Shown: positions 40,785 through 58,047 of the stretch, in pieces
Numbering within the stretch: the first letter of the stretch is position 1
Layout: each line of letters opens with the position of its first letter
Source: Ulvibacter algarum
Lineage (GTDB): Bacteria > Bacteroidota > Bacteroidia > Flavobacteriales > Flavobacteriaceae
Direction of reading: 5' to 3'
Assembly: GCA_947488905.1 (NCBI GenBank)
Contig: CANLBJ010000001.1
Coordinates: 868,001 to 932,000, forward strand
Length of the DNA: 64,000 nucleotides
The notes under the pieces: model-generated
What the model was told of the DNA's origin: nothing
Databases searched by the model: none
Seen by the model: only the letters and a program-made list of their open reading frames with translations
Made by a program: the position numbers and the translations under genes

Positions 40785-41130
40785 TATGTCTAATTACAAA
40801 TATTGAGTTCTAATAGTGAGTAAAAATAAAAACTAAATATGTTCTTTTTTATCTGTGTCGCAATTAATTATGGTGTAATGTAGTTTCTCATATTTTTTTT
40901 ATAGTTTTATGTTTTACAAGTTTTTAGTTTGTTACTAGGGAGTATTAGACTAAATGCTACAATTTATAGTTAAAGAGGTATAGTGCTTATTTGTCGAATT
41001 TTTTTTAAAAAACCACTCGTCGACACTTAAACGTTATTCATCTACACTTATCAAGGGCTTTAACCGTTTATCGAATTTTATGAGTAATAAAATACCGAAA
41101 TTGCACCCATAAATGACAAGAGTTAAAACT
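40785..41130 (+). promoter_or_regulatory. 346-base intergenic region holding the promoter of the signalling operon (site 1)
   Basis: The first 200 bases are AT-rich with no gene I can support. Two direct repeats follow: TCGTCGACACTTA (41017-41029) and TCATCTACACTTA (41038-41050), 21 bp apart. They lie exactly 84 and 63 bp before TTGCA at 41101, the presumed -7 region (CGAAATTGCA, a poor TAnnTTTG match, as expected for an activated promoter). The first repeat sits in CCACTCGTCGAC (41013-41024), which recurs at the promoters near 46.65, 48.77, 50.74 and 57.97 kb. A LytTR-consensus-like ACCGTTTAT is also present (41063-41071). Confidence 0.72.
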
Positions 41131-41532
41131 ATGAAAGTACTACTTATTGAAGATGATCTTATTGAAGTGATGAAGCTTAAACGCTCTATTAGTAAATTGG
41201 ATATGGATGTTACCTTAGTTGAAGCTAAAAATGGAGAAGAAGCATTAGATTTGTTAAAAGACAGTCAAAGTTTGCCAGATTTGATATTTTTAGATCTCAA
41301 TATGCCAAAAATAAATGGTATTGAATTCTTAAAAATATTAAAAAGCGATGACGTTCTAAGATATTTACCTACTGTGATTTTAACAACATCAAGCAATAGA
41401 AAAGATGTATTAGAATGTTATAAGGTGGGTGTTGCGGGATATATTTTAAAGCCTTTAAAATATGATGAGTATCTAGATAAAATACAAAAAACCTTGCTTT
41501 ACTGGAGTGTAAATGAATTAATAAAAATATAG
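41131..41532 (+). CDS. Single-domain response regulator (CheY-like)
   Basis: A 133-residue receiver domain: MKVLLIEDDLIEVMKLKR with the acidic pair, phosphoacceptor Asp55 in LIFLDLNMPKING, Thr in VILTTSSNR and Lys in AGYILKPLKYDEY. No output domain exists, so it acts by protein contact or as a phosphate shuttle or sink. ATG 41131 is used; an ATG at 41113 would lie only about ten bases after the presumed -7 region, leaving no room for a leader. It is the first gene of a seven-gene operon, directly abutting the H-NOX gene. Confidence 0.88.
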   Translation: MKVLLIEDDLIEVMKLKRSISKLDMDVTLVEAKNGEEALDLLKDSQSLPDLIFLDLNMPKINGIEFLKILKSDDVLRYLPTVILTTSSNRKDVLECYKVGVAGYILKPLKYDEYLDKIQKTLLYWSVNELIKI

Positions 41533-42075
41533 ATGAAAGGAATCGTTTTTACAGAACTATTAGATTTAGTTGAAGAAAAATTTGGTTTAGGTATGGTAGA
41601 TACTATCATAGAAAATTCTGAATTAGAGTCTGGAGGTGTTTATACAGCAGTTGGTACTTACAGTTTTGCCGAGATGTTGTCGCTACTTAAAAGTTTAAGT
41701 GCCGCAACAGGAATTTCTATTGACGATTTACTAGAGGTGTATGCTGAGCACTTTTTTAGTGTTGTAGAGGTTAGTTACCCAGGGTTTTTAGCCCAATATA
41801 ATGACCCTATAGAGATGTTAGCGTCTATAGAAAACCATATACACGTAGAGGTTAGAAAGATCTACCCAGACGCAGAATTACCTACTTTTGATATAGAAGA
41901 AAAGACAGATAAAAGTCTTACAATGCTCTATACATCAAGTAGAGCAATGTATAGTTTTGGTAGAGGTTTAATGAATAAAACTTTTGAACACTTTAACAGT
42001 TCTGCAACCATAATTATGGAAAAATTAAAAGAGGACGGAACTGAAGTTAGGTTTATTATAACTAAAAATGACTAA
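41533..42075 (+). CDS. H-NOX heme domain gas sensor
   Basis: A 180-residue stand-alone H-NOX protein beginning MKGIVFTELLDLVEEKFG. The axial heme ligand is most likely His104 in IENHIHVEVRKIYPDAELP, by analogy with His102 of the Thermoanaerobacter protein. The heme-propionate motif YxSxR is Tyr133, Ser135 and Arg137 (YTSSR). The pocket sequence has no obvious distal Tyr for oxygen binding, so it probably senses nitric oxide. H-NOX proteins regulate a partner kinase or cyclase; the kinase gene here overlaps it by eight bases. Confidence 0.93.
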   Translation: MKGIVFTELLDLVEEKFGLGMVDTIIENSELESGGVYTAVGTYSFAEMLSLLKSLSAATGISIDDLLEVYAEHFFSVVEVSYPGFLAQYNDPIEMLASIENHIHVEVRKIYPDAELPTFDIEEKTDKSLTMLYTSSRAMYSFGRGLMNKTFEHFNSSATIIMEKLKEDGTEVRFIITKND

Positions 42076-43288
42076 ACTTTCTGTAGAAATCTTAGAACGT
42101 GCTCTTAAAAGAGAGCGGGCTGCTAGAAAGCAGGCCGAAAGAATTCTAGAACAAAAAGCTAGAGAATTATACACATTAACTCAAGAGCTCCAATTTTCTA
42201 ATAAAGAGTTAGAGCATATGGTTTGGGAGAAGACTTCTGAGCTTAAAGGTGTTTTTGAAAATATTATTGACGCATTTGTAGTCATGGATCTCTCCGGAAA
42301 AGTGCTGAAGATGAATGATGCAGCTATTGATTTATTGGGTTATACTATAGCAAATGAGCCAATAAACTTGATAGATATTGTACACCCTGATGAGAAACAA
42401 GGTATTATTGATGCTTTTAAATTATTGTATGTTAATGGCTCTGTAGCTAATTATCAAGTTAAGGTAATAACAAAGGAAGGTAAAACAAGATTAGTTGACA
42501 TAAATGCAAGTATTATTTATGACGAGAAAGACAAGCCAGTTGCTGCACAAGGTATTGTAAGAGATATTACAGAGTTTAAATGTCTTGAAAACCAAAAAGA
42601 AATTCTTTTAAAAAAACTTGAGAAAAGTAATGATGAGTTACAAGAGTATGCTCACGTAGTATCTCATGATTTAAAATCTCCATTACGCAGTATTTATGCT
42701 TTAGTAGATTGGATAAAAGAAGACAATGAAGGTCAATTTAATGAAGAGACTTTGCACAATTTTTCTCTAATTGATATTACATTAGAAAAAATGGAACAAC
42801 TCATTTCTGATGTATTAGATTATTCTAGTGTAACCTCAGAAAATGTGTCTGCAGCAGAGGTAGATTTAAACATTGTATTTAAAGATATTTATCAAATTCT
42901 TTACCTTCCAGATCATATCAAGTTGTCTTGTATTAAAAATTTACCATCTATTAAGGGTAACAGATCTAGATTACAACAATTATTTCAAAACCTTATTAGC
43001 AATGCCATACGGTATTGTGACAAAGAAGAAGGCCTCATTGATTTAGATTATAAAGATCAAGGAGAGTTTTATCAATTTTCAATTCAAGATAACGGGATTG
43101 GTATCGCTCCAGAACACCACGAAAAAATATTTAAAATATTCCAAAGTTTACATCAAAACAAAGAATCTACGGGAGTAGGCTTATCTATTGTTAAAAAGAT
43201 AGTAGAGAGTTATCAAGGAGAAATCTGGTTAGAGAGTGCATTAGGAGAAGGGACAACATTTTACTTCACATTAAAGAAAGAATTATGA
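42068..43288 (+). CDS. PAS-domain histidine kinase, presumed H-NOX partner
   Basis: A 406-residue soluble kinase. The N-terminal coiled coil (RALKRERAARKQAERILEQK, then ELYTLTQEL) is a hallmark of kinases encoded beside H-NOX and FIST genes. A PAS domain spans about 60-175, a HisKA domain carries phosphoacceptor His200 (AHVVSHDLKSPLR), and HATPase_c has NLISNAIRY, DNGIGIAP and GVGLSIVKKI. There is no membrane segment, consistent with a soluble sensor partner. It overlaps H-NOX by eight bases and the FIST gene by four. H-NOX binding usually inhibits such kinases when NO is bound. Confidence 0.9.
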   Translation: MTKLSVEILERALKRERAARKQAERILEQKARELYTLTQELQFSNKELEHMVWEKTSELKGVFENIIDAFVVMDLSGKVLKMNDAAIDLLGYTIANEPINLIDIVHPDEKQGIIDAFKLLYVNGSVANYQVKVITKEGKTRLVDINASIIYDEKDKPVAAQGIVRDITEFKCLENQKEILLKKLEKSNDELQEYAHVVSHDLKSPLRSIYALVDWIKEDNEGQFNEETLHNFSLIDITLEKMEQLISDVLDYSSVTSENVSAAEVDLNIVFKDIYQILYLPDHIKLSCIKNLPSIKGNRSRLQQLFQNLISNAIRYCDKEEGLIDLDYKDQGEFYQFSIQDNGIGIAPEHHEKIFKIFQSLHQNKESTGVGLSIVKKIVESYQGEIWLESALGEGTTFYFTLKKEL

Positions 43289-44415
43289 AAACATTACAAT
43301 TAGTAAGAAAAGCAAATGAAGATTGGAAAACTATAGGTGAGACAAGAACTTTAAAAAACCCTTTGGTTTTAGTTTTTGGTGATCGTCTTTTATTAGAAGA
43401 TAAAAATATTTATGAAGAGGTTTCAAGTATGTTTCCTGATGGTGAGATTGTATTTGGTACTACTTGTGGAGAGATTGCTGCCGGTAAAGTTAATACTCAA
43501 AGTATCACAATCACAGCAATCGAATTTGAAAAAACTACATTTAAAATTGAAAAGCATAGCATTCTAGAAGAAGGCCTAGATAGCCAGAAAGCAGGATATA
43601 AAGCGGTAGAAAAACTAGATAAAGAAGGGATAAGCTATGTTATGGTTATCTCTGAAGGAAGTTTTGTAAACGGTAGTCACCTAGTAAAAGGAATGTCAGA
43701 TGCATTACCAGGAACACTTATGTCTGGTGCTCTTTGTGGGGATGATGGAAGATTTGAAAAAACGTTAGCATCTTATAATGAAAACCCAAAAGCAGGAGAA
43801 ATTGTTGTGATTGGTTTTTATGGAGAATCTTTTGAAGTTTCTTCTTCTATTTATGGCGGGTGGACCCCTTTTGGTCCTGAACGAATTATTACAAAATCTG
43901 AAAATAATGTGTTGTATGAAATAGACGGACAGCCTGCGCTAGACTTGTATAAAAAGTATCTTGGCGATAAAGCTGCAGATCTGCCAGAATCTGCACTTAT
44001 TTATCCATTAAATGTAAAGATTGTAAAAAATAAACACGCTTTTGTTAGATCAATTTTAAGTATTGATGAAGATGCTAATGCTATGGTTCTTGCCGGTGAT
44101 GTGCCAGAAGGATCTAAAGTACAGTTAATGATGACAAACGTAGATGATATTGCATCTGCATCAGAAACTGCTGCAAGACAAGCTATGGAAAATAGGAAAA
44201 GTAAACCAGAATTGGCTTTTTTAGTTAGCTGTATAGGTAGAAAACTAGTTTTAGATCAACGTATAGAAGAAGAAGTGGATGAGGTTTTAGATGTGGTTGG
44301 TGATGATGTTACTATTACTGGTCTCTATTCTTATGGCGAGATAGCTCCATTTCATGGAGAGTCTAGTTGTGAGCTTCATAATCAAACGATGACAATAACG
44401 CTTATTAGCGAATAA
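43285..44415 (+). CDS. FIST-domain sensor protein (possible NosP-type NO sensor)
   Basis: A 376-residue protein made of FIST_N (about 25-225: VFGTTCGEIAAG, LPGTLMSGALCGDDGRF) and FIST_C (about 230-370, ending YGEIAPFHGESSCELHNQT). FIST domains bind small ligands, and a subset, NosP, are heme-based nitric oxide sensors paired with histidine kinases that control biofilms. Conserved-looking His residues are His251 and His357/His365; which, if any, binds heme cannot be told here. It lies between two kinase genes, overlapping the first by four bases and one base before the second. Confidence 0.85.
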   Translation: MKTLQLVRKANEDWKTIGETRTLKNPLVLVFGDRLLLEDKNIYEEVSSMFPDGEIVFGTTCGEIAAGKVNTQSITITAIEFEKTTFKIEKHSILEEGLDSQKAGYKAVEKLDKEGISYVMVISEGSFVNGSHLVKGMSDALPGTLMSGALCGDDGRFEKTLASYNENPKAGEIVVIGFYGESFEVSSSIYGGWTPFGPERIITKSENNVLYEIDGQPALDLYKKYLGDKAADLPESALIYPLNVKIVKNKHAFVRSILSIDEDANAMVLAGDVPEGSKVQLMMTNVDDIASASETAARQAMENRKSKPELAFLVSCIGRKLVLDQRIEEEVDEVLDVVGDDVTITGLYSYGEIAPFHGESSCELHNQTMTITLISE

Positions 44416-44416
44416 T

Positions 44417-45472
44417 ATGAACACGCTCTTAAAAAGGCAAATAAGAAAATACTTTCCAGAAGAGTATTTAGCCGATAATAAGTTTAGTGATTTTTTAGAA
44501 GCAATAAGTAAATCTTATGATAATTCTGAAGAAAAAAATGTAATGACGCAACGTGCCATGAAGATCAGCTCTGATGAGTTGTTTGAGGTAAACGAGCAGT
44601 TGCGCGCAGAAACAATTGAACAAAAAGAATTATTAAATAACCTTAGACAGACATTAAAAACTTTAGGTTTTTTAGACGAAGAGACAGATGGTAGCCTAGA
44701 GGTTAAAAATCTAGAGTTAAATCCAAGGGTCTTAGCAAAAACTATTAGAGATCAAGCAGAGCAACTTGTTGAAGTTAATACCAAGCAAGAAAAACTATTA
44801 CAAGAATTAGCAGTGCAAAATCAAGAGTTAAATGATTACACACATATAGTTTCTCATGATTTAAAGACACCATTAAGGAGTATTGATACACTACTTAATT
44901 GGCTAAAGGAAGATCACTCTGAGGGTCTTAATGAAGAAGCGTTACGTTATTTAAATAACATAGAAGATCAAGTTGAAAAGATGGATGATCTTATTTCTGG
45001 CATTTTAAGATACTCTTCTATTGATAAAACTTTAAATAATGAAAAGACTTTAGACCTTAATGTTTTAGTTAAAGATATTGTTTCTAAAATCGCGGTGCCT
45101 TCAAACATTAATATTTCGGTACATAAACTACCTATGATTACTGCAGATGCATTTAAATTAACACAGTTATTTGAAAATTTAATATCTAATGCAATCGCAA
45201 GTATTGATAAAAAGACAGGTTTAATCAACATAGAGAGTGAAAGTATTGACGGTTTCTGGAAATTCTCTGTCACAGATAACGGTGTTGGTATAAAAGAAGC
45301 CTATTTTGATAAGATTTTTGAAGTTTTTCAAAAACTAGAAAATGATAGTCCATCTACAGGTATTGGTCTGTCAATAGTTAAAAAAATCGTTACTCATTAT
45401 GGAGGGGTTGTTTGGTTAGAAAGCCAAGAAAACGTTGGTACAACCTTTTATTTTACTTTAAAAAAAGACTAA
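44417..45472 (+). CDS. Histidine kinase, presumed FIST-protein partner
   Basis: A 351-residue soluble kinase. The first 65 residues (LLKRQIRKYFPEEYL, FLEAISKSYDNSEEK, KISSDELFEVNEQL) form a domain often seen in kinases beside FIST genes. A coiled coil (about 60-140) leads to the HisKA domain with phosphoacceptor His147 (THIVSHDLKTPLR) and an intact ATPase domain (NLISNAIAS, DNGVGIKE, GIGLSIVKKI). Its kinase core is closely similar to that of the other kinase in the operon (both end TTFYFTLKK), suggesting duplication. Its stop shares one base with the Hpt start. Confidence 0.9.
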   Translation: MNTLLKRQIRKYFPEEYLADNKFSDFLEAISKSYDNSEEKNVMTQRAMKISSDELFEVNEQLRAETIEQKELLNNLRQTLKTLGFLDEETDGSLEVKNLELNPRVLAKTIRDQAEQLVEVNTKQEKLLQELAVQNQELNDYTHIVSHDLKTPLRSIDTLLNWLKEDHSEGLNEEALRYLNNIEDQVEKMDDLISGILRYSSIDKTLNNEKTLDLNVLVKDIVSKIAVPSNINISVHKLPMITADAFKLTQLFENLISNAIASIDKKTGLINIESESIDGFWKFSVTDNGVGIKEAYFDKIFEVFQKLENDSPSTGIGLSIVKKIVTHYGGVVWLESQENVGTTFYFTLKKD

Positions 45473-45789
45473 TGGAGCAACCTAATTTTTCTTATATAGA
45501 CGCCTTGTCTGGAGGCGATGAAGCTTTTAAACTAAAGCTAATAGCGATAGTAAAAGAAGAGCTTCCGGTAGAGATTGATGTGTATGTTGCTAATATGAAA
45601 ATAAAAAATTTTCAAGAAGCTGCAGAAAATGTGCATAAACTTAAACATAAAATCAGTATTTTGGGTTTAGAAACGAGTTATGAATTAGCTGTTAACTTTG
45701 AAGAAAACTTAAAAGAGAACTCTCTTGAGTTAAAAGAAGAGTTTGACGCTATATTAAAAGAGATGCTTCGTTTTATAAATACACTATAA
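45472..45789 (+). CDS. Histidine phosphotransfer (Hpt) protein
   Basis: A 105-residue helical protein with phosphoacceptor His55 in ENVHKLKHKISILGL (the HxLKxxxxxLG pattern). It relays phosphate between receiver domains. The ATG at 45472 is used, sharing one base with the preceding kinase stop (TAATG); a longer reading would overlap that kinase gene by 60 bases. Its presence in an operon with a CheY-like protein and a LytTR regulator argues for a multistep phosphorelay. Confidence 0.85.
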   Translation: MEQPNFSYIDALSGGDEAFKLKLIAIVKEELPVEIDVYVANMKIKNFQEAAENVHKLKHKISILGLETSYELAVNFEENLKENSLELKEEFDAILKEMLRFINTL

Positions 45790-45798: not shown

Positions 45799-46527
45799 AT
45801 GATGAAATGTATTATTGTTGATGACGAGACTGCAGCAAGAATGATTATTGAGCACCTTTGCTCTAATGTTGATACACTAGAGGTAATAGGTGAGTTCCCT
45901 AATGCTATGCAGGCGATTAAATTTCTCAACAAGAATGAAGTAGATGTAATCTTCTTAGATATTCATATGCCAGATTTTACTGGTTTTGACTTCATTGATT
46001 CTTTAAAGAACCCGCCAAGGGTTGTACTTACCACCTCAGATAAAAACTTTGCTATCGAGGCATTTGAGTACGATTGTATTGTAGATTATTTAGTAAAGCC
46101 AGTACTGCTACCTCGTTTTTTAAAGGCGGTGCAAAAAATTGAAAGTTTTATACCTGTTACAGAGACGGTTGCAACACCTACGCCTATTTCAAAAACAACC
46201 GCAGAGCCTACTTCAAAAACAGAGCTTTATGTTAATATAGATAGACGACTAGTTAAAATTGATTTTGAAAAAATTTATCTAGTAGAAGCAAAGGGAGATT
46301 ACATTTTAATTAAAACCGAAGGTAAGAACTATACCGTACATTCAACTTTAAAGAAAATTGAAGAAAAGTTATCTGGTAGTTCTTTTTTAAAAGTACACCG
46401 TTCTTATATTATCAACATTGATAAAATCATTGATATTGAAGATAATAGTATTTTAATCGCAAAAGATGTTATCCCTATAAGTAGATCTAATAGACCAGAA
46501 TTAATGAAAAGGCTCAATCTTTTATAG
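45799..46527 (+). CDS. LytTR-family response regulator
   Basis: A 242-residue transcription regulator. The receiver domain (residues 1-120) has Asp54 in IFLDIHMPDFTG and Lys in DYLVKPVLLPRF; a linker rich in Thr and Pro (about 120-145) leads to the LytTR DNA-binding domain (YVNIDRRLVKIDFEKIYLVE, then VHRSYIINIDKIIDIE). LytTR proteins bind pairs of short direct repeats about two helical turns apart. It is the last gene and sole DNA-binding output of this operon, and 21-bp-spaced repeats occur at the operon's own promoter and at three polysaccharide promoters. Confidence 0.92.
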   Translation: MMKCIIVDDETAARMIIEHLCSNVDTLEVIGEFPNAMQAIKFLNKNEVDVIFLDIHMPDFTGFDFIDSLKNPPRVVLTTSDKNFAIEAFEYDCIVDYLVKPVLLPRFLKAVQKIESFIPVTETVATPTPISKTTAEPTSKTELYVNIDRRLVKIDFEKIYLVEAKGDYILIKTEGKNYTVHSTLKKIEEKLSGSSFLKVHRSYIINIDKIIDIEDNSILIAKDVIPISRSNRPELMKRLNLL

Positions 46528-46642
46528 TCTTTTTTTAACCTAATACCTTTTAAAAATAATAGATGCAAGCGCTCACTTTTAAATAAGATTGAATGCTTAA
46601 ATGCTACTTATTTAGTTTTAAGTCTTTAGAATACCATTTACT

Positions 46643-46699
46643 GTCGATGAATGGAATTTTACTAAAGATTAAAATACTCTTATCTGACCTTAACTTGCA
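46643..46699 (+). promoter_or_regulatory. Promoter region of the TPR/beta-barrel gene with a reverse copy of the regulon motif
   Basis: CCATTCATCGAC lies on the minus strand at 46654-46643, the same 12-mer as at the neighbouring promoters (CCAYTCRTCKAY). TTAACTTGCA (46690-46699) would be the -7 region, 17 bases before the ATG. Unlike sites 1-4 the box is reversed and not on the 84/63/42 grid, so regulation by the same factor is less certain. Confidence 0.4.
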
Positions 46700-46716: not shown

Positions 46717-48741
46717 ATGAAAACACTACAGATTATTATCGTTTTATTAGGCCTAACAGTGCAAGCTCAAAATATGGATGCTGGGTTCACTTATCTTGAA
46801 AAAGGTAACTGGAATGAAGCAGTTACATTTTTTGAGGATGTTCTAGAAGAATATCCAGAAAATAAAACAGCTACCCTTTGTTATGCAAGAGCCGTTGGTT
46901 TATCTGGAAATCCAGATGAGGCTGCTGTGCTTTTTACTTCTTTATTAGAAACATATCCAGGAGATTTTGAAATTCAATTAAACCTTGCAGAGTCTTTATT
47001 ATGGAGAGAGAAATATGAAGAGGCAGAAACTTTTTATTTAAAACTAGTAGCTAAACAAGCAACAAGCTTTCCTGCATTATTAGGTTTAGCAAATACATAC
47101 TCAAATCTAAAAAAATATGAATCTGCTTTAGATCTTGTAAATAGAGCGCTTACAGTTGATCCAGAAAATATAGGAGCAAAGACAAGTAGAAAGTATATAA
47201 AGTTAGGCTTAGCTTCTCAGTTAATTAAAAATTACAATCAAGAAGAGGCTATCAAGTTACTTAATGAAAACTGTGTAGACTTTCCTGGTGATAAAGAATC
47301 ACTAGGTATGTTAGCAGAGTTATATATGACTCAAAAGAATTTTGAAAAAGCAAATGAAACATATCGTTCTATTAACGATAGTGTAGTTTTATATAGAGGT
47401 ATATCACTAGTTGCTCATAAAATGTTTAAAGATAAAAATGCAATAGCTTATGCTCAAAATGGTGTAGATTTTTCTGTAAAGAATGACTCTACTAAATACT
47501 TACAAGCAAGCGAGCGTTTAGTGCAAGCACTTGTATGGGGCGGTAAATATGGTCAAGCAACAAAAGCTATTGAAGACTTAAAATTAAATTACCCTAATAA
47601 TACTACTGTTCTAGCTCTTGAAGCAACTGTAGGGATGTACACAGCAAAGTTTGCTAAGAGTATTGAACATTATGAAGATATACTAGCAATAGACAGTACT
47701 TCTTTTGACGGTAACTTAGGTATTGCTAATGCTTATAGAGCAAAAGGAGAAAGAACAATTGCATTAAATTATGCAAACAAAACGCTTGAGTTTTACGCAG
47801 ATCAAAAAGATGCAAAAACTTTAATCGCAACTATTAATAACGAAATGCTTCCAGAAGTTCAAGTAAGAGGAGCTATGACTGTAGATAATGGTGATAATAA
47901 AGCTTGGTCTTACGGGGCTACTTTAAATATTCCATTTACAGAGCGATTTAAGACCTTCTTTTCTTACGCCTATAGAACAACAACTAACAGTACTATTAAT
48001 ACAATGGCAAACAGTACACAGTTTACAGCGGGTGGTACTTACCGTGTAGTAAATAACGTGAAAATTCATTCTTCATTAAGTTTAATAAATGCAAATGCAA
48101 ACTCTGAAGAGTATTCTAATGTTAATGGAGCATTAAAAGTTACTGCAAGACCATTACCTAATCAGTTTTTAAGCGTAGGGTATAACAGAGAATTACAAGA
48201 CTTTAATGCAAGTTTGATAGAAGAAAAAATATTTATGAATAACTATAATGTGAGTCATAATATTAGTTCAAATTTTGGTTTAGGATGGTACACTTCTTAC
48301 ACATACACTTCACAAACAGATACAAATAAGCGTAATTTATTATTCACGTCTCTATACTATAACCTAACTAAGCGCCCAGCAATAAAAGCCGGTATTAATT
48401 ATCAGTATATGGGGTTTTCAAAGCAAGTACCTACTTTATACTTTAGTCCTTCAAAATACCAATCTGTAGAGGTATTTGCAGAAGCAAACGGAAAGATAGG
48501 AGCTTTTACTTATATGGTAAATAGTGCTTTTGGTAATCAGTTTGTAGAGAATGATGACGCAACTTCACTTTTTAGAATTGAAGCTAAGACAGGGTTTAAA
48601 ATAGCAAAAAACCTTTTAGGATCTGTGTATGGTAAGTATAGTAATATAGCGTCTGCTACTGCTTCTGGCTTCTCTTTTACAGAGGTTGGTTTTCAAGTAT
48701 CTTGGAAAATAGGTAAAAAGAAGACTAATACTACTAAGTAA
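46717..48741 (+). CDS. TPR and outer-membrane beta-barrel protein, polysaccharide-export type
   Basis: A 674-residue exported protein. The signal peptide is MKTLQIIIVLLGLTVQAQ. Residues 20-380 are about ten TPR units (for example AVTFFEDVLEEYPENKTATL). Residues 385-674 are beta-strands of an outer-membrane barrel (SYGATLNIPFTERFKTFFSY, ending FTEVGFQVSWKI), like the YaiO family. TPR domain plus C-terminal barrel is the plan of the exopolysaccharide export porins PgaA, BcsC and PelB. Given the following flippase and glycosyltransferase genes, it likely exports the same polymer; sequence identity to those porins is not claimed. Confidence 0.78.
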   Translation: MKTLQIIIVLLGLTVQAQNMDAGFTYLEKGNWNEAVTFFEDVLEEYPENKTATLCYARAVGLSGNPDEAAVLFTSLLETYPGDFEIQLNLAESLLWREKYEEAETFYLKLVAKQATSFPALLGLANTYSNLKKYESALDLVNRALTVDPENIGAKTSRKYIKLGLASQLIKNYNQEEAIKLLNENCVDFPGDKESLGMLAELYMTQKNFEKANETYRSINDSVVLYRGISLVAHKMFKDKNAIAYAQNGVDFSVKNDSTKYLQASERLVQALVWGGKYGQATKAIEDLKLNYPNNTTVLALEATVGMYTAKFAKSIEHYEDILAIDSTSFDGNLGIANAYRAKGERTIALNYANKTLEFYADQKDAKTLIATINNEMLPEVQVRGAMTVDNGDNKAWSYGATLNIPFTERFKTFFSYAYRTTTNSTINTMANSTQFTAGGTYRVVNNVKIHSSLSLINANANSEEYSNVNGALKVTARPLPNQFLSVGYNRELQDFNASLIEEKIFMNNYNVSHNISSNFGLGWYTSYTYTSQTDTNKRNLLFTSLYYNLTKRPAIKAGINYQYMGFSKQVPTLYFSPSKYQSVEVFAEANGKIGAFTYMVNSAFGNQFVENDDATSLFRIEAKTGFKIAKNLLGSVYGKYSNIASATASGFSFTEVGFQVSWKIGKKKTNTTK

Positions 48742-48768
48742 AAAAAAGAGCTTAAAGAAGGTAAATTA

Positions 48769-50715: not shown

Positions 50716-50804
50716 TTGTCTATAGTTAATTTCCACTCATCTATACCAACTTACCGTCTACCGATTCTGCTCAATTTAAACCTCTTAACCTCCGCATCTT
50801 TGCA
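50716..50804 (+). promoter_or_regulatory. Promoter with 21-bp-spaced regulon boxes (site 3)
   Basis: TTGTCTA (50716-50722) and TCATCTA (50737-50743) are 21 bp apart and lie exactly 84 and 63 bp before TTGCA at 50800; the -7 element is CATCTTTG (50795-50802). The second box is within CCACTCATCTAT (50733-50744). A further TACCGTCTACCG (50752-50763) is nearby but off the grid. The glycosyltransferase ATG follows 34 bases after the -7 region, which fixes its start at 50839. Confidence 0.72.
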
Positions 50805-50838: not shown

Positions 50839-52044
50839 ATGAAATTAGGAATTGTAACAGCGTATCCGCCAAGTAAAGTAACATTAAATGAGTATGCTTT
50901 TTATTTGGTAAAAAACTTTAGACAACACGAAGAACTGTCTGAGATTATTTTATACACAGACGCAACAGAAGAAGAAGCGGCTATTAACTTTGAAGGTCAC
51001 GGATGTAAAATAACAGTAAAACAATGCTGGAAATTTAATAGCTACACAAATGTACTTTCTATAGATAAAGCGATCAATGAAACACAACCAGATGCGGTTC
51101 TTTATAACCTTCAATTTATGAAGTTTGGTGACAAAAAAATAGCAGCGGCTTTAGGTCTTTTTTCTCCTTGGATGACAAAATTAAAAGGAATTAAAACTAC
51201 TGTATTATTACATAACATATTAGAAATGGTAGATCTTTCTAGCGCTGGTTTTACTCAAAATAAATTTAAAGCTAGAATCTTAAATGGTATAGGAAACGTT
51301 CTTACTCGTGTTATCTTAAAAGCAGACACGGTTGCTGTAACAATGGATAAATATGTGACAATACTACAAGACAAGTATAAAGCAGACAACATAACATTAA
51401 TACCTCACGGTACTTTTGAGATCCCAGCAGAGCCGTCTTATAAGTTAGATAAAGGGCCTAAGCAAATTATGACTTTTGGAAAGTTTGGTACCTACAAGAA
51501 AATTGAAGCGATGATTGAGGCTGTTGCCATTGTAAGAGAAGAAACTAAAGAAGATTTAGAGATTGTAATTGCAGGAACAGATAACCCTAACACACCAGGT
51601 TATTTAGCAGGTGTAGAAAAGCAATATGCAGATATGCCTAACTTAAGGTTTACTGGTTATGTAGAAGAAGAAGATGTGCCAGTAATATTTGGAGAGGCTG
51701 CAATGGTTGTTTTTCCTTATACTTCTACAACGGGAAGCTCAGGTGTATTGCACCAAGCAGGTAGTTTTGGTAAAGCCGTTGTTATGCCAGATCTTGGAGA
51801 CTTAAGTTTACTTGTTAAAGATGAAGGATATGAAGGAGAATTTTTTGAGCCAACTTGCACAAAAAGTCTTGCATCTGCCATTAAAAAATTAGTTTTAGAT
51901 GATAGCTATAGAAATGCAATAGCAAAGAAAAATTATCAAGCTGCAACTGCATTACCTATGAGTGAGATTACAAGAAGATACATTAATACATTTAGAGAGA
52001 TACAACTAGATACTACAGCTTATGAATTTGATGTAGCTGCATAA
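50839..52044 (+). CDS. Glycosyltransferase family 4-type (GT-B) enzyme
   Basis: A 401-residue GT-B enzyme. The N-terminal LGIVTAYPPSKVTLNEYAFYL is the acceptor-side glycine loop, and the C-terminal domain holds KQIMTFGKFGTYKKIEAMIEA, LRFTGYVEEEDVPVIFGEA and the donor-binding FPYTSTTGSSGVLHQAGSFGKA. The family transfers a sugar from a nucleotide donor with retention. ATG 50839 is chosen because the promoter elements end at 50804; a longer reading begins inside the operator. It probably assembles the polymer exported by this locus. Confidence 0.88.
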   Translation: MKLGIVTAYPPSKVTLNEYAFYLVKNFRQHEELSEIILYTDATEEEAAINFEGHGCKITVKQCWKFNSYTNVLSIDKAINETQPDAVLYNLQFMKFGDKKIAAALGLFSPWMTKLKGIKTTVLLHNILEMVDLSSAGFTQNKFKARILNGIGNVLTRVILKADTVAVTMDKYVTILQDKYKADNITLIPHGTFEIPAEPSYKLDKGPKQIMTFGKFGTYKKIEAMIEAVAIVREETKEDLEIVIAGTDNPNTPGYLAGVEKQYADMPNLRFTGYVEEEDVPVIFGEAAMVVFPYTSTTGSSGVLHQAGSFGKAVVMPDLGDLSLLVKDEGYEGEFFEPTCTKSLASAIKKLVLDDSYRNAIAKKNYQAATALPMSEITRRYINTFREIQLDTTAYEFDVAA

Positions 52045-52047: not shown

Positions 52048-53559
52048 TTAATCTAAAGATTTAAATAAATTATATGATTCTTTAGGTGTTCCTTCAAGGT
52101 CAATTAGTCCAAAGTGTTCTTGTTTGTTTTTACGCCAAGGGTATATACCCGCAACAGAAGAAGGAATGTTTTCAAAATCATATAAGGTCCAAAAAAGATA
52201 GTTTCGGCTATCTTTTTTTTGCATTTCTAAGAACTTCTTGTAGTACGTGTATTGATCGTTTTCATCATTCCCAAAAACATTCCAGAAGCCAAAATCTGTA
52301 GACAGACCAAACTCTTGTAGCACAATTGGTTTATCGCTTTTTGCTTCAATAGTATCATAAGCTTCTGGCAGTGATTCTAATGATTGATAATGATGAAAAC
52401 TTATATAGTCTACCGTGTTTACTAAATGTGTGGCAGCAACAGCTGTAGACCATCCTACGGTAGTTGGGTGTATACTATCTGTTTCTTTTATGGCGTGATT
52501 CATTTCTGTGAGCCAAGCCTTTACACGTTGTTCTCCTCTAGATTCAAAATCTAGATCTGGTTCATTTTTAATATCCCAGCTATGCAATGCTTTATGGTTG
52601 CCCACAGCCGCCACTATGGTTTGTGCGTGCAATTGTGTTCTTGACCAGTCTAAGACAGAATAATCTCCATAAAAATCAAAAAGCGTGATAATCACGTCAA
52701 GATTATTAACTTCTGCCACATCTAATAATTTTATTAATTTTTTAATTTTTATTTCTGAAACGTTCGCCCCACCAAAATCATCATAACCTATAAAAATCCT
52801 AATACTTTTAAACCCTAGCATATTTATTTTTTGGAAGTCTGAGTTAATTATTTCCGAAGAAAAAGAAGTATTAAAAGTGTCCCAAGAACTATCTTTTGGG
52901 TAATAATTAAGACCAATTACTGTCTCAAATTTTTTAGGTTGGGTATTAGAATTTGATGTCTTACCGACCTTAATTTTTTCTTGGTGTCTTATACGCCAGT
53001 AGCCATCTTCTAGCAACATCATTATTTTATAGCTAGCTATTTCTGTAGTATCAAATTTAAAAATTTCGTTTACATAGGTAGCGCTGTATGTTCTTACATT
53101 GTTGTCTGTAAAAGTCACCATATTACCATCTGCACTATAAAAATCTAGTGTGATGTCGTGATTTAATGTGGTAGATTCTATTCTTGTCTTATGGTCTGCA
53201 TTGTGATTAACAATGGCAATCAAGTTTTCTTTAGCGTTTTTTGTATACACATCTTGAATACCCTGCGTATCTCCACTCCTCAGGCTTTGCGCTCTTGCAT
53301 ACCAGGCATCTAAATAATGTTGCTCGATAATTTGAAGAGAGGGTTGCTCCATAGGTCTGCCCTCATTATTTAGTTCTTTCCAGGTTACTTTTGGGGTGTA
53401 ATAGTTTTCTTTTGTCACATCTTGATGAAACATACTTGCTCTATCTGCACCCGTGTTTAAGTAATTTAATATTTGTGCAATACCAAAAAGGATGAAGCCA
53501 TTGACTAGAATAAATCCAGCAATTAAAAAAATTCTATATGTAATCTTGTTTGCTTTCAA
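52048..53559 (-). CDS. Membrane-anchored GH5-like glycoside hydrolase
   Basis: A 503-residue protein with an N-terminal membrane anchor (FLIAGFILVNGFILFGIAQIL). Residues 70-195 form an NTF2-like domain (IEQHYLDAWYARAQSLRSGD). From about 210 a clan GH-A barrel follows: FKSIRIFIGYDDFGG, acid/base Glu in LHSWDIKNEPD, and nucleophile Glu in PIVLQEFGLS. Such enzymes cut beta-linked glucans or mannans. A polymer-trimming or release role in the same locus is likely. It overlaps the upstream gene by four bases and is the third gene of a minus-strand operon. Confidence 0.85.
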   Translation of the reverse strand: MKANKITYRIFLIAGFILVNGFILFGIAQILNYLNTGADRASMFHQDVTKENYYTPKVTWKELNNEGRPMEQPSLQIIEQHYLDAWYARAQSLRSGDTQGIQDVYTKNAKENLIAIVNHNADHKTRIESTTLNHDITLDFYSADGNMVTFTDNNVRTYSATYVNEIFKFDTTEIASYKIMMLLEDGYWRIRHQEKIKVGKTSNSNTQPKKFETVIGLNYYPKDSSWDTFNTSFSSEIINSDFQKINMLGFKSIRIFIGYDDFGGANVSEIKIKKLIKLLDVAEVNNLDVIITLFDFYGDYSVLDWSRTQLHAQTIVAAVGNHKALHSWDIKNEPDLDFESRGEQRVKAWLTEMNHAIKETDSIHPTTVGWSTAVAATHLVNTVDYISFHHYQSLESLPEAYDTIEAKSDKPIVLQEFGLSTDFGFWNVFGNDENDQYTYYKKFLEMQKKDSRNYLFWTLYDFENIPSSVAGIYPWRKNKQEHFGLIDLEGTPKESYNLFKSLD

Positions 53560-54803
53560 TTGATAGCTTTTTTAACTTTTTTAGAAATACCTAAAGCATT
53601 TATAGTAAATACATAATCACCTTTAGGGTAGAAGTCTTCGGAAATATTAAAACTAGCAAATCCGTCTTTTGAAGAAGCTTTTTGTGTTTCTATATTCCCA
53701 TCAATTGATAATGTCACCTCGGCTCCGTCTGGTATGAGTTGGCCTAAATAACTTTTAAGAGGGCCAACCTCTATGGTTCTATTGTTTTCAGAAAACTGTA
53801 TTTCAAATTCTTTTAAAATAGATTTAAAAGCAATGGCTATTTCTTGAGACTTTGCTAACCCCGGGATGCTTGCTTTTATTTTTAAAGTTGTGGGAGCATT
53901 AGGGAAAATAAGTTTTGCAGATGCGATACCATTAATAGTATTAGATGAGGTTCTAAAAATCTGGTTAGAGTCATCACGCCCTATAAATTGTACAAGTGTG
54001 CCATCTGTGATTATATTATTGTAAGCATCTTTTAATATAGAAGTGTTTATTGTGAGTATTTGATTTCCATCTGCAAAAGGATGAACTCTTTCAAAAGATA
54101 TTTTAAAATCTTGTGGCTGGTTTGCAAATACATCAATATTCATCTCCTTAGATGAACTGTTTTCTAATAGTGCTGTAGCAAAAATGCGCCCTTTCTTTTT
54201 TGGTGAGAAAATATGTTTCCAAGCAATTCGCTTATTAATCACTAACGGAAATGTTTGAGTATTTACATCTCTCTGTTCATTAATTGTAACCGGAGTTTTG
54301 TCTAACAGTAAGTTGTCATATATATCTGTAGGCGTAGCAACTATCATTGTAAAATCTCTACCGCCAGCAATAATACTTGGTGGTCCTACATAGGTTTCGG
54401 CTATTTTCTCAAAAGAAGTATGTGGTAGTATTTCAAAGCTTCCGGTATCTAAACTTTTTCCGTGCGCAAAAAAGGTCCATTGTATCCATCCAGATTTCTT
54501 TGTTATAAAATTAGGGATCTCAAATTTTATAGGTTCTTTTTTTGGGTCTACAGACAGTACTGTTATACCATAAGATGTGGAGAGTTGAAGAAAGACTTCG
54601 GTTAGATTTGATGATTTTATGTTCTCAATTTTTCCAGAAAGAGTAATGGTGTCTCCTGCAACATATTTTGTATTATTTTCTATAAGTACACCAGTAAGCG
54701 CTTGATTATCACTAATCAAATAATCATCCTGTATAGATTGAAACCCAATACATATAATTATTACAGGTAGTATAAACCAGATATGTTTAAAGACTTTTTT
54801 CAT
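53556..54803 (-). CDS. Exported protein with repeated Ig-like domains (415 aa)
   Basis: A signal or anchor (FKHIWFILPVIIICIGFQSI) is followed by about four beta-sandwich units, for example GDTITLSGKIENIKSSNLTEVFLQLS and FADGNQILTINTSILKDAYNNIITDG, the latter resembling invasin/BIg-type domains. No catalytic motif is visible. It is encoded between the large membrane protein and the glycoside hydrolase, one base after the former and overlapping the latter by four, so the three probably form an envelope complex. Confidence 0.7.
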   Translation of the reverse strand: MKKVFKHIWFILPVIIICIGFQSIQDDYLISDNQALTGVLIENNTKYVAGDTITLSGKIENIKSSNLTEVFLQLSTSYGITVLSVDPKKEPIKFEIPNFITKKSGWIQWTFFAHGKSLDTGSFEILPHTSFEKIAETYVGPPSIIAGGRDFTMIVATPTDIYDNLLLDKTPVTINEQRDVNTQTFPLVINKRIAWKHIFSPKKKGRIFATALLENSSSKEMNIDVFANQPQDFKISFERVHPFADGNQILTINTSILKDAYNNIITDGTLVQFIGRDDSNQIFRTSSNTINGIASAKLIFPNAPTTLKIKASIPGLAKSQEIAIAFKSILKEFEIQFSENNRTIEVGPLKSYLGQLIPDGAEVTLSIDGNIETQKASSKDGFASFNISEDFYPKGDYVFTINALGISKKVKKAIN

Positions 54804-57800
54804 TTAATTAGGGTTTCCTATATAACTATTAACTTGAATACTTATGTAAGAGTAGTTTTTATTTTTAACAGGAATGAGTGTTTGAGTTGGGTCATCTAAA
54901 ATTCTATCAGGGACTACTTTATTTGATATTTCTTTGTTTGGTAAACCATTAATAAATACGTTTCTTAACGATGTATTTAAAATAGTTCTCTCGTCATTAT
55001 TACCTAAAGGGACTTTAAAGTTTACTTTTCTTTGTGGTCTTACACTTTCTTCAATATAATTACTAGACACATTTATTAGCTTTTTGTCATCGTCATAATA
55101 AGATATAAGTAATTGTGGTATGGTAGCATTTTGAATACCAGTATTAAAAAGTGATCCTTCTATAAAACCATCATTAATTTTATGGTCTTGTATTGCTAGC
55201 CCATCATATAGATCTGTTGTGGCAACATTAGCAGAAACTTGCAAATTAAAAGAGACTGGCACTTCGTTTAGAACAATTGGTGTAAATTCATTAGGGTCAA
55301 AAACCTCTGGTGGGGGAGGAGCGTCAAAGTTACTCCATGCAATACCCTCAAAGTCAATTCTAAAATTTGATGACTCTTTTGCAAACAGTTTATGTTTAAT
55401 AATATCTTTTGCATTATAAGTAGCTAATATTTTATTGTCTTTAGAATATAATGTAGCTTGAATAGCAATATCTGCGGGTATAAAATCTATGTTTTGTAAA
55501 GTACCTACAATAGAGTATTCTTCGCCAACCTTTACTAGTTTTGCAGATAGTACTTCTACAACGGGTTGTTTTAAAACATCTTCATGATAGGTTTTTCCAG
55601 AAGTTACTCTTCTTCTTCCGTGGTTATAAAAAGTGGTGGTGTTTTCAGAAAAAAGTTGATCTGGTGGTATGTCAAGATCAATATTTTGAGGCGTGATAAA
55701 CCATTTATTATTAATTTTTTTAACCTCAATAATTTCTTGAGTATTAAACACCTTTAAAGGAGTAATCCATTTAGTAAATGTTTTAAGTTTTGCTACGCTA
55801 TCATTTTCTTGAATCGCAATAGTGCTAATAGCATCTAGTTTTGCGTAAGAACTTAATAAACCATCAGAAACAGACACTTCTAGCATGTACTGTGATTTAG
55901 ATTTTCCGCTCTCAGGGTTTATATAAGAGTACGCTTTTTCAAAATTTTTAAAATCAAGAGCGTCATAATAAGCTTTCACTACATTACTTCCAGTAAGTTG
56001 CGCAGTGTTTTTTAGGTAAAACGTATAACCTCCAAAAGCAAAAACGACAATCATAATCAGTATCCATAAATAAGATATGTAGAATAACCACTTATTAGGC
56101 GGAGTGTACTTTTGCTCAAAAGCGAGGTAAGTATATGCGTGTTGTGATGATCTTTTTAAAGTACGGAACCATATAGAACGCAAGTTGATAAGCAATGCAA
56201 AAATAACGGTACTTAAAGGAATTATACCCCATAGCAATTTTTGAAATAATGGAACTTCATCTTTGGGTAATACATTGGGTAATGGGGTTACACCTGCACG
56301 TTCCCACACCATGATACCATTTTCTAGTTGTTGTAATCTATGCCAACCAGAAAAATAAAGTATAGGGTCATAAAACTTGTCATTAGAAAAAATATACTTG
56401 AGATGATACTTATCTGGCACCGTAAGAAACTGTTGTAAAGACCCTATTCCTTCTACACCTCTAAACTTAGAGTTTTCTAATCTTTCTACTGCCTTTGTGG
56501 TAAGTTCTGGCAATCTTCTTGCAGAGTGATAATTACCATCTACAGTCATAGCTTTTGTCTGAGCAGAAAGCCAAGCCATCTGGTCACCAAAACCAAGTGG
56601 TAAATACCTCCATTTATCGTGATCATCTTGATTTAAAAAATTAACAATAGGGAGCATGTTAATCTCTTGCGGTTGTGCGGGTCTAAATTTTCCGAGACTA
56701 ACCGTAAATAAGGCAATAAATATAAACACCCCCACTAAGACACCTCCAGTAACACGATGTATTAAAGGACCCCATTTTTCTTGAAGATATTTTTTTATAT
56801 CACCATCAGAAAATCTATATGCAAATTCACCAAATATGGGTAGAATAATAATTGATGCCCACAGAGTAAACCTGTCTAAGGTCAAGATGTTAAAAGCATT
56901 TTCGCCTAGTATAGTGATAGGTATAGAGGTTGTTCCTCCTGTTCCTAATATTGTAAGTATGGCAAACGAAATACCAAAAAAGAGATATCTTTTACTGAAA
57001 TATCTGTAAAATAAATAGGGGAATAATAATAAGAGTATACCCCAAGGGATTAAAAAGAAAACGAGACCAGAAGAAGTAACTTCAAGAAAATTATCTCGAG
57101 AACCATGTGGTATTGGTACTTGAGTAATAGGGTTGTTTTTTGTGTTAATCCAATAAGGAAGAATACAACCAATAATTAATACAAGAGACCCGAGACCAAA
57201 AGTTATTATTCGTTTAAAATAAGATTTAAATGTAGTAAGGAAAACTTTAAAAGTAACCGCTTTAATGTTGCCCACTTTTTCTTTAGAGCCATCCATCAAA
57301 GCCATCCCTATTAATGGAAATATAAAGAAAACCATACCAAAGATAGGTGTAACATGATGTGATGTGATTGTTACTGCTAGCATTGCTAACGATGTGATGA
57401 GGTATTTAATTTTCCCAGTTCTTAACCACAAGTAAATTTCTGGTAGGGTATGTAGCAAGACAGAGATACCTATAATACTAGGCAGTTGTCCAAAAATATG
57501 TAACGTTTCAACAAAAGAACTTGAAAATACAGCAAGTATAGCTGCATATCCAGCTACCGTTCTATTACCGGTAATTAATAGCGCAAAGCGATATACTCCT
57601 GTAATAAAGAGTGTAACGCCTATTAATGCAACGGTAAACATCCCAAATTTGAGCCCACCTATATAGGAGAGTAATCCAATAGTTTGATGCACCAGTGGTG
57701 GGTATCCCATAACGGTAAAGCCTGTATACCAGCTATAATTCCATGGTTCAAACCAACTTTGAGAATAATGCTCTGCAAAAAACAGATGTATAAGAGCATC

Positions 57801-57896
57801 ATAAGTAGTCTCTAAGGTAAAGAAAACAGAGCCTCCATGAAAAAGCAACCCTAAGAGTAGGGCAGTGATAAGATATTTATTAGTCTTCTTTTCCAT
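54804..57896 (-). CDS. Large multi-spanning membrane protein, GT-C/PTPS-related type (1030 aa)
   Basis: Residues 1-400 contain about ten hydrophobic segments; the first loop (TLETTYDALIHLFFAEHYSQ, then FTVMGYPPLVHQTIG) has the Asp-His arrangement and G-x-P-P pattern of the '6-pyruvoyl-tetrahydropterin-synthase related' GT-C-like membrane family. Two more segments lie near residues 555 and 625. The C-terminal 400 residues are periplasmic: an NTF2-like part (YYDALDFKNFEKAYSYINPE) and two beta-rich domains. The ATG at 57896 is chosen because a perfect -7 box (TATATTTG, 57940-57933) overlaps the alternative ATG at 57935. It may be a lipid-linked glycosyltransferase or polymerase. Confidence 0.68.
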   Translation of the reverse strand: MEKKTNKYLITALLLGLLFHGGSVFFTLETTYDALIHLFFAEHYSQSWFEPWNYSWYTGFTVMGYPPLVHQTIGLLSYIGGLKFGMFTVALIGVTLFITGVYRFALLITGNRTVAGYAAILAVFSSSFVETLHIFGQLPSIIGISVLLHTLPEIYLWLRTGKIKYLITSLAMLAVTITSHHVTPIFGMVFFIFPLIGMALMDGSKEKVGNIKAVTFKVFLTTFKSYFKRIITFGLGSLVLIIGCILPYWINTKNNPITQVPIPHGSRDNFLEVTSSGLVFFLIPWGILLLLFPYLFYRYFSKRYLFFGISFAILTILGTGGTTSIPITILGENAFNILTLDRFTLWASIIILPIFGEFAYRFSDGDIKKYLQEKWGPLIHRVTGGVLVGVFIFIALFTVSLGKFRPAQPQEINMLPIVNFLNQDDHDKWRYLPLGFGDQMAWLSAQTKAMTVDGNYHSARRLPELTTKAVERLENSKFRGVEGIGSLQQFLTVPDKYHLKYIFSNDKFYDPILYFSGWHRLQQLENGIMVWERAGVTPLPNVLPKDEVPLFQKLLWGIIPLSTVIFALLINLRSIWFRTLKRSSQHAYTYLAFEQKYTPPNKWLFYISYLWILIMIVVFAFGGYTFYLKNTAQLTGSNVVKAYYDALDFKNFEKAYSYINPESGKSKSQYMLEVSVSDGLLSSYAKLDAISTIAIQENDSVAKLKTFTKWITPLKVFNTQEIIEVKKINNKWFITPQNIDLDIPPDQLFSENTTTFYNHGRRRVTSGKTYHEDVLKQPVVEVLSAKLVKVGEEYSIVGTLQNIDFIPADIAIQATLYSKDNKILATYNAKDIIKHKLFAKESSNFRIDFEGIAWSNFDAPPPPEVFDPNEFTPIVLNEVPVSFNLQVSANVATTDLYDGLAIQDHKINDGFIEGSLFNTGIQNATIPQLLISYYDDDKKLINVSSNYIEESVRPQRKVNFKVPLGNNDERTILNTSLRNVFINGLPNKEISNKVVPDRILDDPTQTLIPVKNKNYSYISIQVNSYIGNPN

Positions 57897-57932
57897 TATC
57901 ATTAAAAGTACATCATTTATTTTCTTCTGGTT

Positions 57933-58047
57933 CAAATATACGAGTTTCGATTAATGGTACATCTGTCGATGAGTGGTATTCGTCTACACTAACACTTCAG
58001 CCATCGAAGAATCACTATTTAAGCCTTTCAATGGTTATATGTTTGCA
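57933..58047. promoter_or_regulatory. Divergent promoter region with three regulon boxes on a 21-bp grid (site 4)
   Basis: Boxes ACATCTG (57959), TCGTCTA (57980) and CCATCGA (58001) start 21 bp apart and lie exactly 84, 63 and 42 bp before TTGCA at 58043; the rightward -7 element is a perfect TATGTTTG (58038-58045). On the minus strand CCACTCATCGAC (57976-57965) precedes a perfect leftward -7 element TATATTTG (57940-57933) for the large membrane-protein operon. One regulator could thus serve both directions. Confidence 0.72.

Follow-up and report, generated by a model that had tools for sequence, protein, structure and literature searches.

Short boxes of the type TCRTCTA recur before a signalling operon and the adjoining polysaccharide genes of Ulvibacter algarum, raising the question of whether they are the operators of a single regulon and, if so, which protein reads them. 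The DNA analysed here, hereafter the window, comprises 64,000 nt of assembly GCA_947488905.1 (contig CANLBJ010000001.1, positions 868,001 to 932,000 of the forward strand). According to Pfam, its seven-gene signalling operon (41131-46527) encodes a REC protein, an H-NOX protein, a PAS histidine kinase, a FIST protein, a second histidine kinase, an Hpt protein and a REC-LytTR protein. Directly behind it lies a polysaccharide-type locus encoding a TPR protein, a STAS protein, a putative flippase, a glycosyltransferase (GT1), a glycoside hydrolase (GH)-like protein, two large proteins, a GT2 glycosyltransferase and a mannose-6-phosphate isomerase. The initial annotation of this DNA, from which the H-NOX/FIST identity of the operon was absent, had proposed that boxes on a 21-bp grid mark four promoters and that the LytTR protein of the operon controls them. 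Comparison with related genomes indicates that the boxes are almost certainly operator sites of one regulon, and that the LytTR protein of the operon very probably binds them.

Box pairs spaced by 21 bp are conserved in related genomes

An H-NOX match was present in 54 of 197 related genomes, and 40 of these 54 loci, one of them lacking the later operon genes at a contig end, formed a first set. The gene order REC, H-NOX, kinase, (FIST, kinase), Hpt, LytTR recurs in these loci, often with the same polysaccharide genes nearby. Before any matrix was built, YTCRTCKAY pairs with at most one mismatch in each member numbered 56 at a spacing of 21 bp in the 40 loci and the window, whereas no other spacing up to 100 bp gave more than 12. 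A matrix of 16 columns was derived from the sequence upstream of the first operon gene in 37 of 39 regions, excluding the window and including a sister genome; locus L080 had no upstream sequence, and L083 and L095 fell below the threshold. With this matrix, the first set contained 97 pairs above 20 bits at 21 bp, versus no more than 9 at eleven other spacings. The 40 loci and the window together hold 91 sites above 20 bits, of which none lies more than 30 bp inside an open reading frame (ORF) of at least 90 aa; this number includes 36 operon-promoter sites, mostly used in training, and does not include the fourth window promoter (16.4 bits).

A second set was assembled from the best 80 of 561 relatives among named genomes, fetched with an alignment of the LytTR protein, and the removal of five duplicates of first-set loci left 75 loci; no further locus had more than 2% of sampled 80-mers in common with the first set, and L124/L156 form one near-identical pair within the second. 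Hosts include Dokdonia, Winogradskyella, Algibacter, Aquimarina, Psychroserpens, Kordia algicida, Leeuwenhoekiella, Polaribacter and Tenacibaculum. These loci yielded 150 pairs above 20 bits at 21 bp, whereas none of the other spacings from 12 to 59 bp gave more than 16, and only one of their 144 sites lies more than 30 bp inside an ORF of at least 90 aa. The reversed matrix gave no pairs in either set. Upstream of the orthologous operons, where the initial annotation would expect the boxes to persist, a pair above 18 bits was found in 40 of 46 loci, mostly training loci, and a pair above 20 bits precedes the first operon gene in 57 of 68 second-set loci independent of matrix training. H-NOX was seen in 60 and FIST in 49 of the 75 named loci, some of which are cut by contig ends, suggesting that the sensors vary. 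The locus of Kordia algicida OT-1 (L169) contains the response regulator (RR), H-NOX and FIST genes, with a box pair above the RR gene.

The boxes are concentrated at one locus of the genome

All nine heptamers and all four TTGCA strings listed in the initial annotation were found at their coordinates, and its distances of 84, 63 and 42 bp were right. These had been measured from TCRTCTA to TTGCA; here, C0 denotes the first C of the extended box CCATTCRTCKACACT, and offsets run from C0 to the first T of TTTG. As TCRTCTA begins at C0+4 and TTGCA one base after the first T, 42, 63 and 84 become 45, 66 and 87. Scored with the matrix from other genomes, five of the nine heptamers (41017, 41038, 48773, 50737 and 57980) stand as strong boxes, with C0 at 41013, 41034, 48769, 50733 and 57976 and scores of 15.8-23.5 bits, whereas 48794 (3.5 bits) and 58001 (-1.0 bits) are weak and occupy a conserved degenerate slot at -45. 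The box at 50716 is doubtful at -6.3 bits, yet it is in register with a local profile match at 50718-50744 (E 0.099), and the box at 57959 was rejected at -10.4 bits, the stronger element there being a minus-strand box with C0 57976. Four boxes were added to the earlier list, with C0 at 50754 (+), 46654 (-), 57976 (-) and 57957 (-).

The window has seven single boxes with scores above 14 bits, every one before the signalling operon or the polysaccharide units, while Markov resamples of the window contained a mean of 0.3 and a maximum of 3 such boxes (n = 40). In the genome of 3.55 Mb, CCAYTCRTCKAYA has three exact matches, every one at this locus, and YCAYTCRTCKACA has four, again all at the locus, two of them being minus-strand sites new to the earlier list. 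A profile of 77 columns, built from 47 promoters of other genomes with the window and the sister genome excluded, was used to score 150 of 4050 first-look candidates, giving 27 matches at E <= 10. Occurrence across the genome was not random: the five best matches (E 1.4e-9, 7.8e-9, 0.0024, 0.039 and 0.099) all lie at this locus. The sixth, outside it, has E 0.12, so that the fourth and fifth, taken alone, are marginal. Promoters 2 and 4 of the window are the best and second-best matches, whereas promoter 3 is split by the profile search into the register 50712/50733 (E 0.099) and the register 50733/50754 running to TTTG (E 2.91). As judged from sequence, the recognisable regulon in this genome is restricted to this neighbourhood.

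The bare pair TCRTCKA at 21 bp was rejected as a genome-wide marker: at up to one mismatch it occurs in 35 places, and at up to two mismatches in 430, versus 1201 for the reversed pattern. Among 30 of the 35 places that were examined, 25 lie in stop-free frames of at least 100 codons; one of these is promoter 3, which the GT1 frame covers when extended upstream. This commonness of the bare pair would suit an explanation by chance, or by selection in a by-eye search of one locus. However, a matrix and a profile made from other genomes recover the locus and the second set of loci replicates the pattern, so that such an origin is extremely improbable.

The boxes are phased to a sigma-A type -7 element

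The initial annotation had anchored the boxes to the -7 region, and this anchoring holds in relatives, although it is weak at operon promoters. The first set has 55 sites outside operon promoters; in 33 of them the distance from C0 to TTTG is exactly 66 bp, and in 47 it is 65-67 or 86-88 bp, versus 4 of 55 at 37 other offsets. In the second set, operon sites included, the same six offsets account for 88 of 144 sites, versus 2 of 144 at offsets shifted by 5. Among 335 sites above 15 bits, TTTG is found at 66 (101 sites), 86 (47), 87 (38) and 65 (20). When aligned on TTTG, these sites have either two boxes, at -66 and -45, or three, at about -87, -66 and -45; the slot nearest the promoter is degenerate and ends in CATCGAAA. 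All four window promoters lie on this grid, at 66 bp for C0 48769, 50733 and 57976 and at 87 and 66 bp for promoter 1, the core of which is ATTGCA rather than TTTGCA. In addition, promoters 2, 3 and 4 share ATTTAA (48811, 50775 and 58018) 24 bp ahead of TTTG, possibly as their -33 element.

The aligned -7 element is of the sigma-A type TAnnTTTG, a box placed at -12 to -5 in the cited text of PMC9723704. On that start-site map, made in another species, the box pair would be centred at about -60. A fixed distance between boxes and -7 core would also be expected if the boxes belonged to the promoter of an alternative sigma factor and not to a regulator site, and the SM5 motif of F. psychrophilum, TAnnTTGY, is described as serving envelope genes (PMC9723704), the window cores ending in TTGCA. 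However, the first box lies 66 or 86-87 bp before TTTG, past the usual reach of a sigma factor, the -7 element is that of sigma-A, and the boxes fill two or three periodic slots, all of which makes a sigma factor a very improbable reader of the boxes.

The boxes mark the starts of transcription units

In addition to the RR promoters counted above, pairs above 18 bits precede the flippase/STAS unit in 20 of 28 cases, GT1 in 12 of 27 and GT2 in 8 of 17, with upstream regions of 900 bp taken for flippase and GT2. Genes inside units have almost none (H-NOX 0/40, LytTR 0/44, GH 0/28, p415 0/25 and HK1 1/47), and random segments of 360 bp contain such a pair in 2% of cases. GT1 is present in 29 of 197 genomes, 28 of which also carry the LytTR ortholog; in the exception, G115, the H-NOX contig ends inside the operon. 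Ten proteins encoded behind sites elsewhere in other species comprise two UDP-glucose/GDP-mannose dehydrogenases, one protein with a phosphoribosyltransferase domain, one isochorismatase, two proteins with a C-terminal type IX secretion sorting domain and four without a Pfam family, suggesting that the targets vary while the regulator stays.

The LytTR protein of the operon is the candidate binder

The LytTR protein is the only one of the seven operon proteins with a DNA-binding domain in Pfam, as the initial annotation had stated. It combines the REC and LytTR domains typical of LytTR response regulators and carries FLKVHRS, which agrees with the FhRhHRS signature (PMC4227749) except for K in place of R at position 198; F196, H200, R201 and S202 are invariant in 20 aligned sequences. 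According to PMC4847170, a LytTR site consists of two repeats, direct or inverse, each of 9-11 nt and with 11-13 nt between them; the repeats of AgrA are described as centred near -60 (PMC4227749). The boxes, with a core of 9 nt and a period of 21 bp, have the LytTR layout. Their core, CCATTCRTC, is nearly that of AlgR, for which the consensus CCGTTCGTC and the rhlI variant CCGTTCATC are given in PMC4064291; eight of nine positions agree with CCATTCGTC. The fraction of background 9-mers scoring at least as high as the AlgR sites is 1.5e-5 for the consensus, 3.8e-5 for rhlI, 4.0e-4 for RB3, 1.2e-3 for algC-ABS3 and 4.8e-3 for algC-ABS2, in a post hoc comparison made after the likeness had been noticed. 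Against the same matrix, the repeats of YpdB and of the LytTR regulatory systems (LRS) of B. thetaiotaomicron and Listeria score negative, and a Treponema repeat scores 5.8 bits.

The boxes also follow the ortholog of this protein, counted as present in any of the 197 genomes at E <= 1e-60. Exact boxes outnumber the reversed control by 112 to 33 in 47 family genomes with the ortholog, whereas the counts are 48 and 52 in 72 family genomes without it (rank test p 1.6e-8, uncorrected for relatedness). A profile match at E <= 1e-4 occurs in 44 of 49 genomes with the ortholog and 1 of 148 without it; as the profile derives from loci with the ortholog, this comparison is partly circular and was not used as evidence. 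In genome G021 (locus L103), the H-NOX operon has no LytTR gene and no box pair, whereas RR and LytTR genes standing together on another contig do have a box pair, which includes ACCGTTCGTCTACAGT and has TTTG at 66 bp; a second pair in this genome (19.5 bits) stands upstream of a 460-aa ORF. Divergent LytTR orthologs in G120 (L112) and G081 (L083), with 52 and 55% identity, accompany profile matches: G081 has four just behind its LytTR gene, and G120, a member of another family, has one far away from that gene. The box code may thus extend beyond Flavobacteriaceae. Taken together, the 21-bp repeats, the near-AlgR core, the association with the ortholog and the arrangement in G021 support the model of the initial annotation, in which the LytTR protein would control its own operon and the polysaccharide locus.

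Several observations weigh against this model. TTTG stands at 65, 66, 86 or 87 bp in only 206 of the 335 sites above 15 bits, and at operon promoters the six grid offsets account for 13 of 36 sites versus 8 of 36 at 37 others. Pairs above 20 bits are missing from 11 of 68 second-set operon promoters, and pairs above 18 bits from 15 of 27 GT1, 9 of 17 GT2 and 8 of 28 flippase promoters, the GT2 promoter of the window (16.4 bits) being one of the nine. The minus-strand boxes facing the 1043-aa gene are off the grid, because they are spaced by 19 bp and lie 40 and 21 bp before TATATTTG on that strand. The loci are related, and their counts are therefore not independent events. Furthermore, this genome encodes 15 LytTR domains that score above the cut-off. 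The ortholog is present in G021, G012 and G003, the polysaccharide loci of which lack a pair above 18 bits (flippase, GT1 and GT2), and likewise in G003, G091 and G067, the operon promoters of which lack one. Genome G059 (L075) keeps a 46.7-bit pair above the RR gene, and no LytTR ortholog was found in it; the fetched stretch has no Hpt or LytTR gene behind FIST. Its H-NOX gene has an in-frame TAG and its FIST frame is short, suggesting recent decay.

The 15 LytTR domains, the boxes kept in G059 and the operon promoters without a pair are what would be expected if another protein, most likely one of the remaining 14 LytTR proteins, bound the boxes, with the operon LytTR acting elsewhere; the common overall layout of LytTR sites (PMC4847170) points the same way. 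However, box enrichment tracks this particular ortholog, and the boxes stand on the promoter of its own operon and, in G021, beside the RR-LytTR pair. In addition, 10 of 20 listed genomes without the ortholog have at least 20 first-look REC-LytTR candidates, a number that may include plain receivers. A different binder is accordingly judged distinctly unlikely.

Activation is the more probable mode of control

The arrangement is best explained, with good confidence, by a phosphorelay of the nitric oxide (NO) type in which the LytTR regulator switches on both its own operon and the polysaccharide locus. The gas sensors H-NOX and NosP-like FIST would modulate the two histidine kinases, and phosphate would pass from the single REC protein to Hpt and then to the LytTR regulator. 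Once phosphorylated, the regulator would occupy head-to-tail boxes, one per two DNA turns, the distal one strong, with the consensus CCATTCRTCKACA, and the one next to the promoter degenerate. It would activate sigma-A promoters whose -7 TTTG starts 66 bp behind the first of two boxes or 86-87 bp behind the first of three slots. In this genome, the targets would be the signalling operon and the adjoining polysaccharide units.

The same LytTR protein might instead repress the polysaccharide units and its own operon until a signal removes it. AlgR both activates and represses (PMC4064291), and at the boxes facing the 1043-aa gene a bound protein would overlap the promoter. However, the boxes of the main promoters stand upstream of the core and in fixed phase with it, as with AgrA- and HdrR-type activators. 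Repression is therefore considered unlikely, and activation appears clearly the more probable of the two modes.

NO is a likely signal, because the H-NOX protein closely matches 6BDD of Kordia algicida and a FIST protein is present. The best match in the PDB is 6bdd (E 6.9e-88, residues 1-180, full length), the Ka H-NOX, of which the cited text treats the haem protein only (PMC7356049), and the operon H-NOX would presumably bind haem and NO. Its HNOB domain is encoded next to a histidine kinase, as is typical of H-NOX signalling operons, and the FIST protein, with PF08495 and PF10442, has the FIST domain expected of NosP. Among the seven operon proteins, Pfam found neither GGDEF nor EAL domains, which mark enzymes of cyclic di-GMP (c-di-GMP); the remaining genome was not searched for them. 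There was also no Pfam sign of an inhibitory membrane partner, a trait of LRS, among these seven proteins, for which membrane segments were not computed.

More broadly, the chances seem evenly balanced that Flavobacteriaceae possess a family-wide NO-sensing phosphorelay in which one AlgR-like LytTR regulator and a 21-bp code anchored to the -7 element plug into the polysaccharide or secreted-matrix genes of each species, taking the place of c-di-GMP in H-NOX biofilm pathways. The boxes would make the cis code of one regulator readable in a family for which few described binding sites were found, and would tie a H-NOX/FIST sensor operon to polysaccharide genes by direct transcription, with targets predictable from sequence in many species. 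How NO might steer flavobacterial biofilm thus becomes testable with one mutant and one probe.

Organisation of the locus

The features of the locus are listed in Table 1.

Table 1. Boxes, -7 elements and genes of the signalling and polysaccharide locus (window coordinates)
Feature	Position	Strand	Remarks
Promoter 1 (signalling operon), boxes C0 41013 and 41034	41012..41048	+	23.5 and 18.6 bits, spacing 21
Promoter 1, -7 core ATTGCA	41100..41105	+	87 and 66 bp after the two C0
Single-domain response regulator (REC)	41131..41532	+	PF00072
H-NOX haem NO-binding protein	41533..42075	+	PF07700, E 6.3e-39
PAS histidine kinase	42068..43288	+	Pfam
FIST-domain protein (NosP-like)	43285..44415	+	PF08495, PF10442
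Second histidine kinase	44417..45472	+	Pfam
Hpt phosphotransfer protein	45469..45789	+	PF01627, 25.9 bits (cut-off 24.6)
LytTR response regulator, proposed binder	45799..46527	+	PF00072; PF04397, E 2.7e-21
Reverse box before TPR gene, C0 46654	46640..46655	-	22.1 bits; profile E 0.039
TPR/outer-membrane export-like protein	46717..48741	+	TPR; BCSC_C and PgaA models both below cut-off
Promoter 2, boxes C0 48769 (strong) and 48790 (weak, -45 slot)	48768..48804	+	19.4 and 3.5 bits; profile E 1.4e-9
Promoter 2, TTTG	48835..48838	+	66 bp after C0 48769
STAS protein	48994-49290	+	STAS_2
Membrane protein, putative flippase	49302-50555	+	no Pfam or NCBIfam match
Promoter 3, boxes C0 50733 and 50754	50732..50768	+	15.8 and 6.0 bits, spacing 21
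Promoter 3, TTTG	50799..50802	+	66 bp after C0 50733
GT4-type glycosyltransferase ("GT1")	50839..52044	+	PF13692, PF00534
GH-like, 415-aa and 1043-aa proteins	52048..57935	-	syntenic in relatives
Boxes C0 57976 and 57957 facing the 1043-aa gene	57943..57977	-	17.9 and 13.6 bits, spacing 19; exact YCAYTCRTCKACA match
Promoter 4, boxes C0 57976 (strong) and 57997 (weak, -45 slot)	57975..58011	+	17.5 and -1.0 bits, pair 16.4; profile E 7.8e-9
Promoter 4, TTTG	58042..58045	+	66 bp after C0 57976
GT2 glycosyltransferase and mannose-6-phosphate isomerase	58080..59889	+	PF00535; PF21621/PF20511; TIGR00218 over cut-off

The membrane protein is read as a flippase by inference, the GH-like protein (52048-53559) matches Glyco_hydro_2_C at E 2.1e-5, and the 415-aa and 1043-aa proteins matched no Pfam family. 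An NCBIfam search of the polysaccharide locus gave no name for the polysaccharide. Between promoter 2 and the STAS gene sits a 36-codon ORF (48862-48972), and in several relatives a STAS-sized ORF begins about 100 bp beyond the boxes. The plus- and minus-strand boxes between the divergent units at promoter 4 stand back to back with one common C0 (57976).

The TPR gene is co-oriented behind the LytTR gene, with a reversed strong box 63 bp upstream (46640-46717). In relatives, a reverse-oriented pair above 18 bits precedes the TPR gene in 20 of 28 loci, and the gene is usually divergent from the STAS/flippase unit; it may have been inverted in the Ulvibacter algarum lineage. Further downstream, 61111-63849 encodes a BlaR1-type M56 peptidase and a BlaI-like repressor, a pair apparently unrelated to the box system.

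Comparison with known systems

A close likeness in sequence is to AlgR, which controls alginate genes in Pseudomonas aeruginosa: as here, a LytTR protein, a nearly identical 9-bp core and polysaccharide targets come together (PMC4064291). However, AlgR sites as described there need not be direct repeats with 12 bp between them and may be distant from the start site, whereas the present boxes occupy strict tandem slots of 21 bp at a fixed distance from the -7 element. The boxes are therefore AlgR-like in sequence and are not classed as AlgR sites, their arrangement being different.

In arrangement, the boxes resemble the direct repeats of AgrA in Staphylococcus aureus, which lie upstream of the promoter with a centre near -60 (PMC4227749), and those of HdrR and other LRS, which are mostly 12 bp apart and serve autoactivation (PMC6193735), as proposed here. 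Both AgrA and HdrR differ in box sequence, and LRS have inhibitory membrane partners, whereas here two or three slots are joined to a gas-sensor phosphorelay. Within the same phylum, the LRS-like operons of B. thetaiotaomicron and B. ovatus have repeats of 11 bp that are 11 bp apart and 11 bp upstream of a TATCTTTG promoter (PMC6193735). Unlike the present boxes, these have a period of 22 and regulators with membrane segments, and, as noted above, the B. thetaiotaomicron repeats score negative.

Among the open-access PMC matches listed, none linked H-NOX to LytTR in Bacteroidetes or Flavobacteria, the nearest being the Bacteroides LRS of PMC6193735, and none described a LytTR output encoded in the same operon with a box code locked to the -7 element in Flavobacteriaceae. 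The parts are known separately from the texts cited: LytTR direct repeats and LytTR autoregulation (PMC6193735), and control of polysaccharide by H-NOX through Hpt (PMC8738867). The latter system, in Vibrio fischeri, leads from H-NOX/HahK to SypF and the syp exopolysaccharide genes, and has in common with the U. algarum locus an H-NOX protein, an adjoining kinase, an Hpt step and a polysaccharide output (PMC8738867). In Vibrio fischeri the output runs through SypF to the syp regulon, whereas in U. algarum it would run through the LytTR protein encoded in the sensor operon itself.

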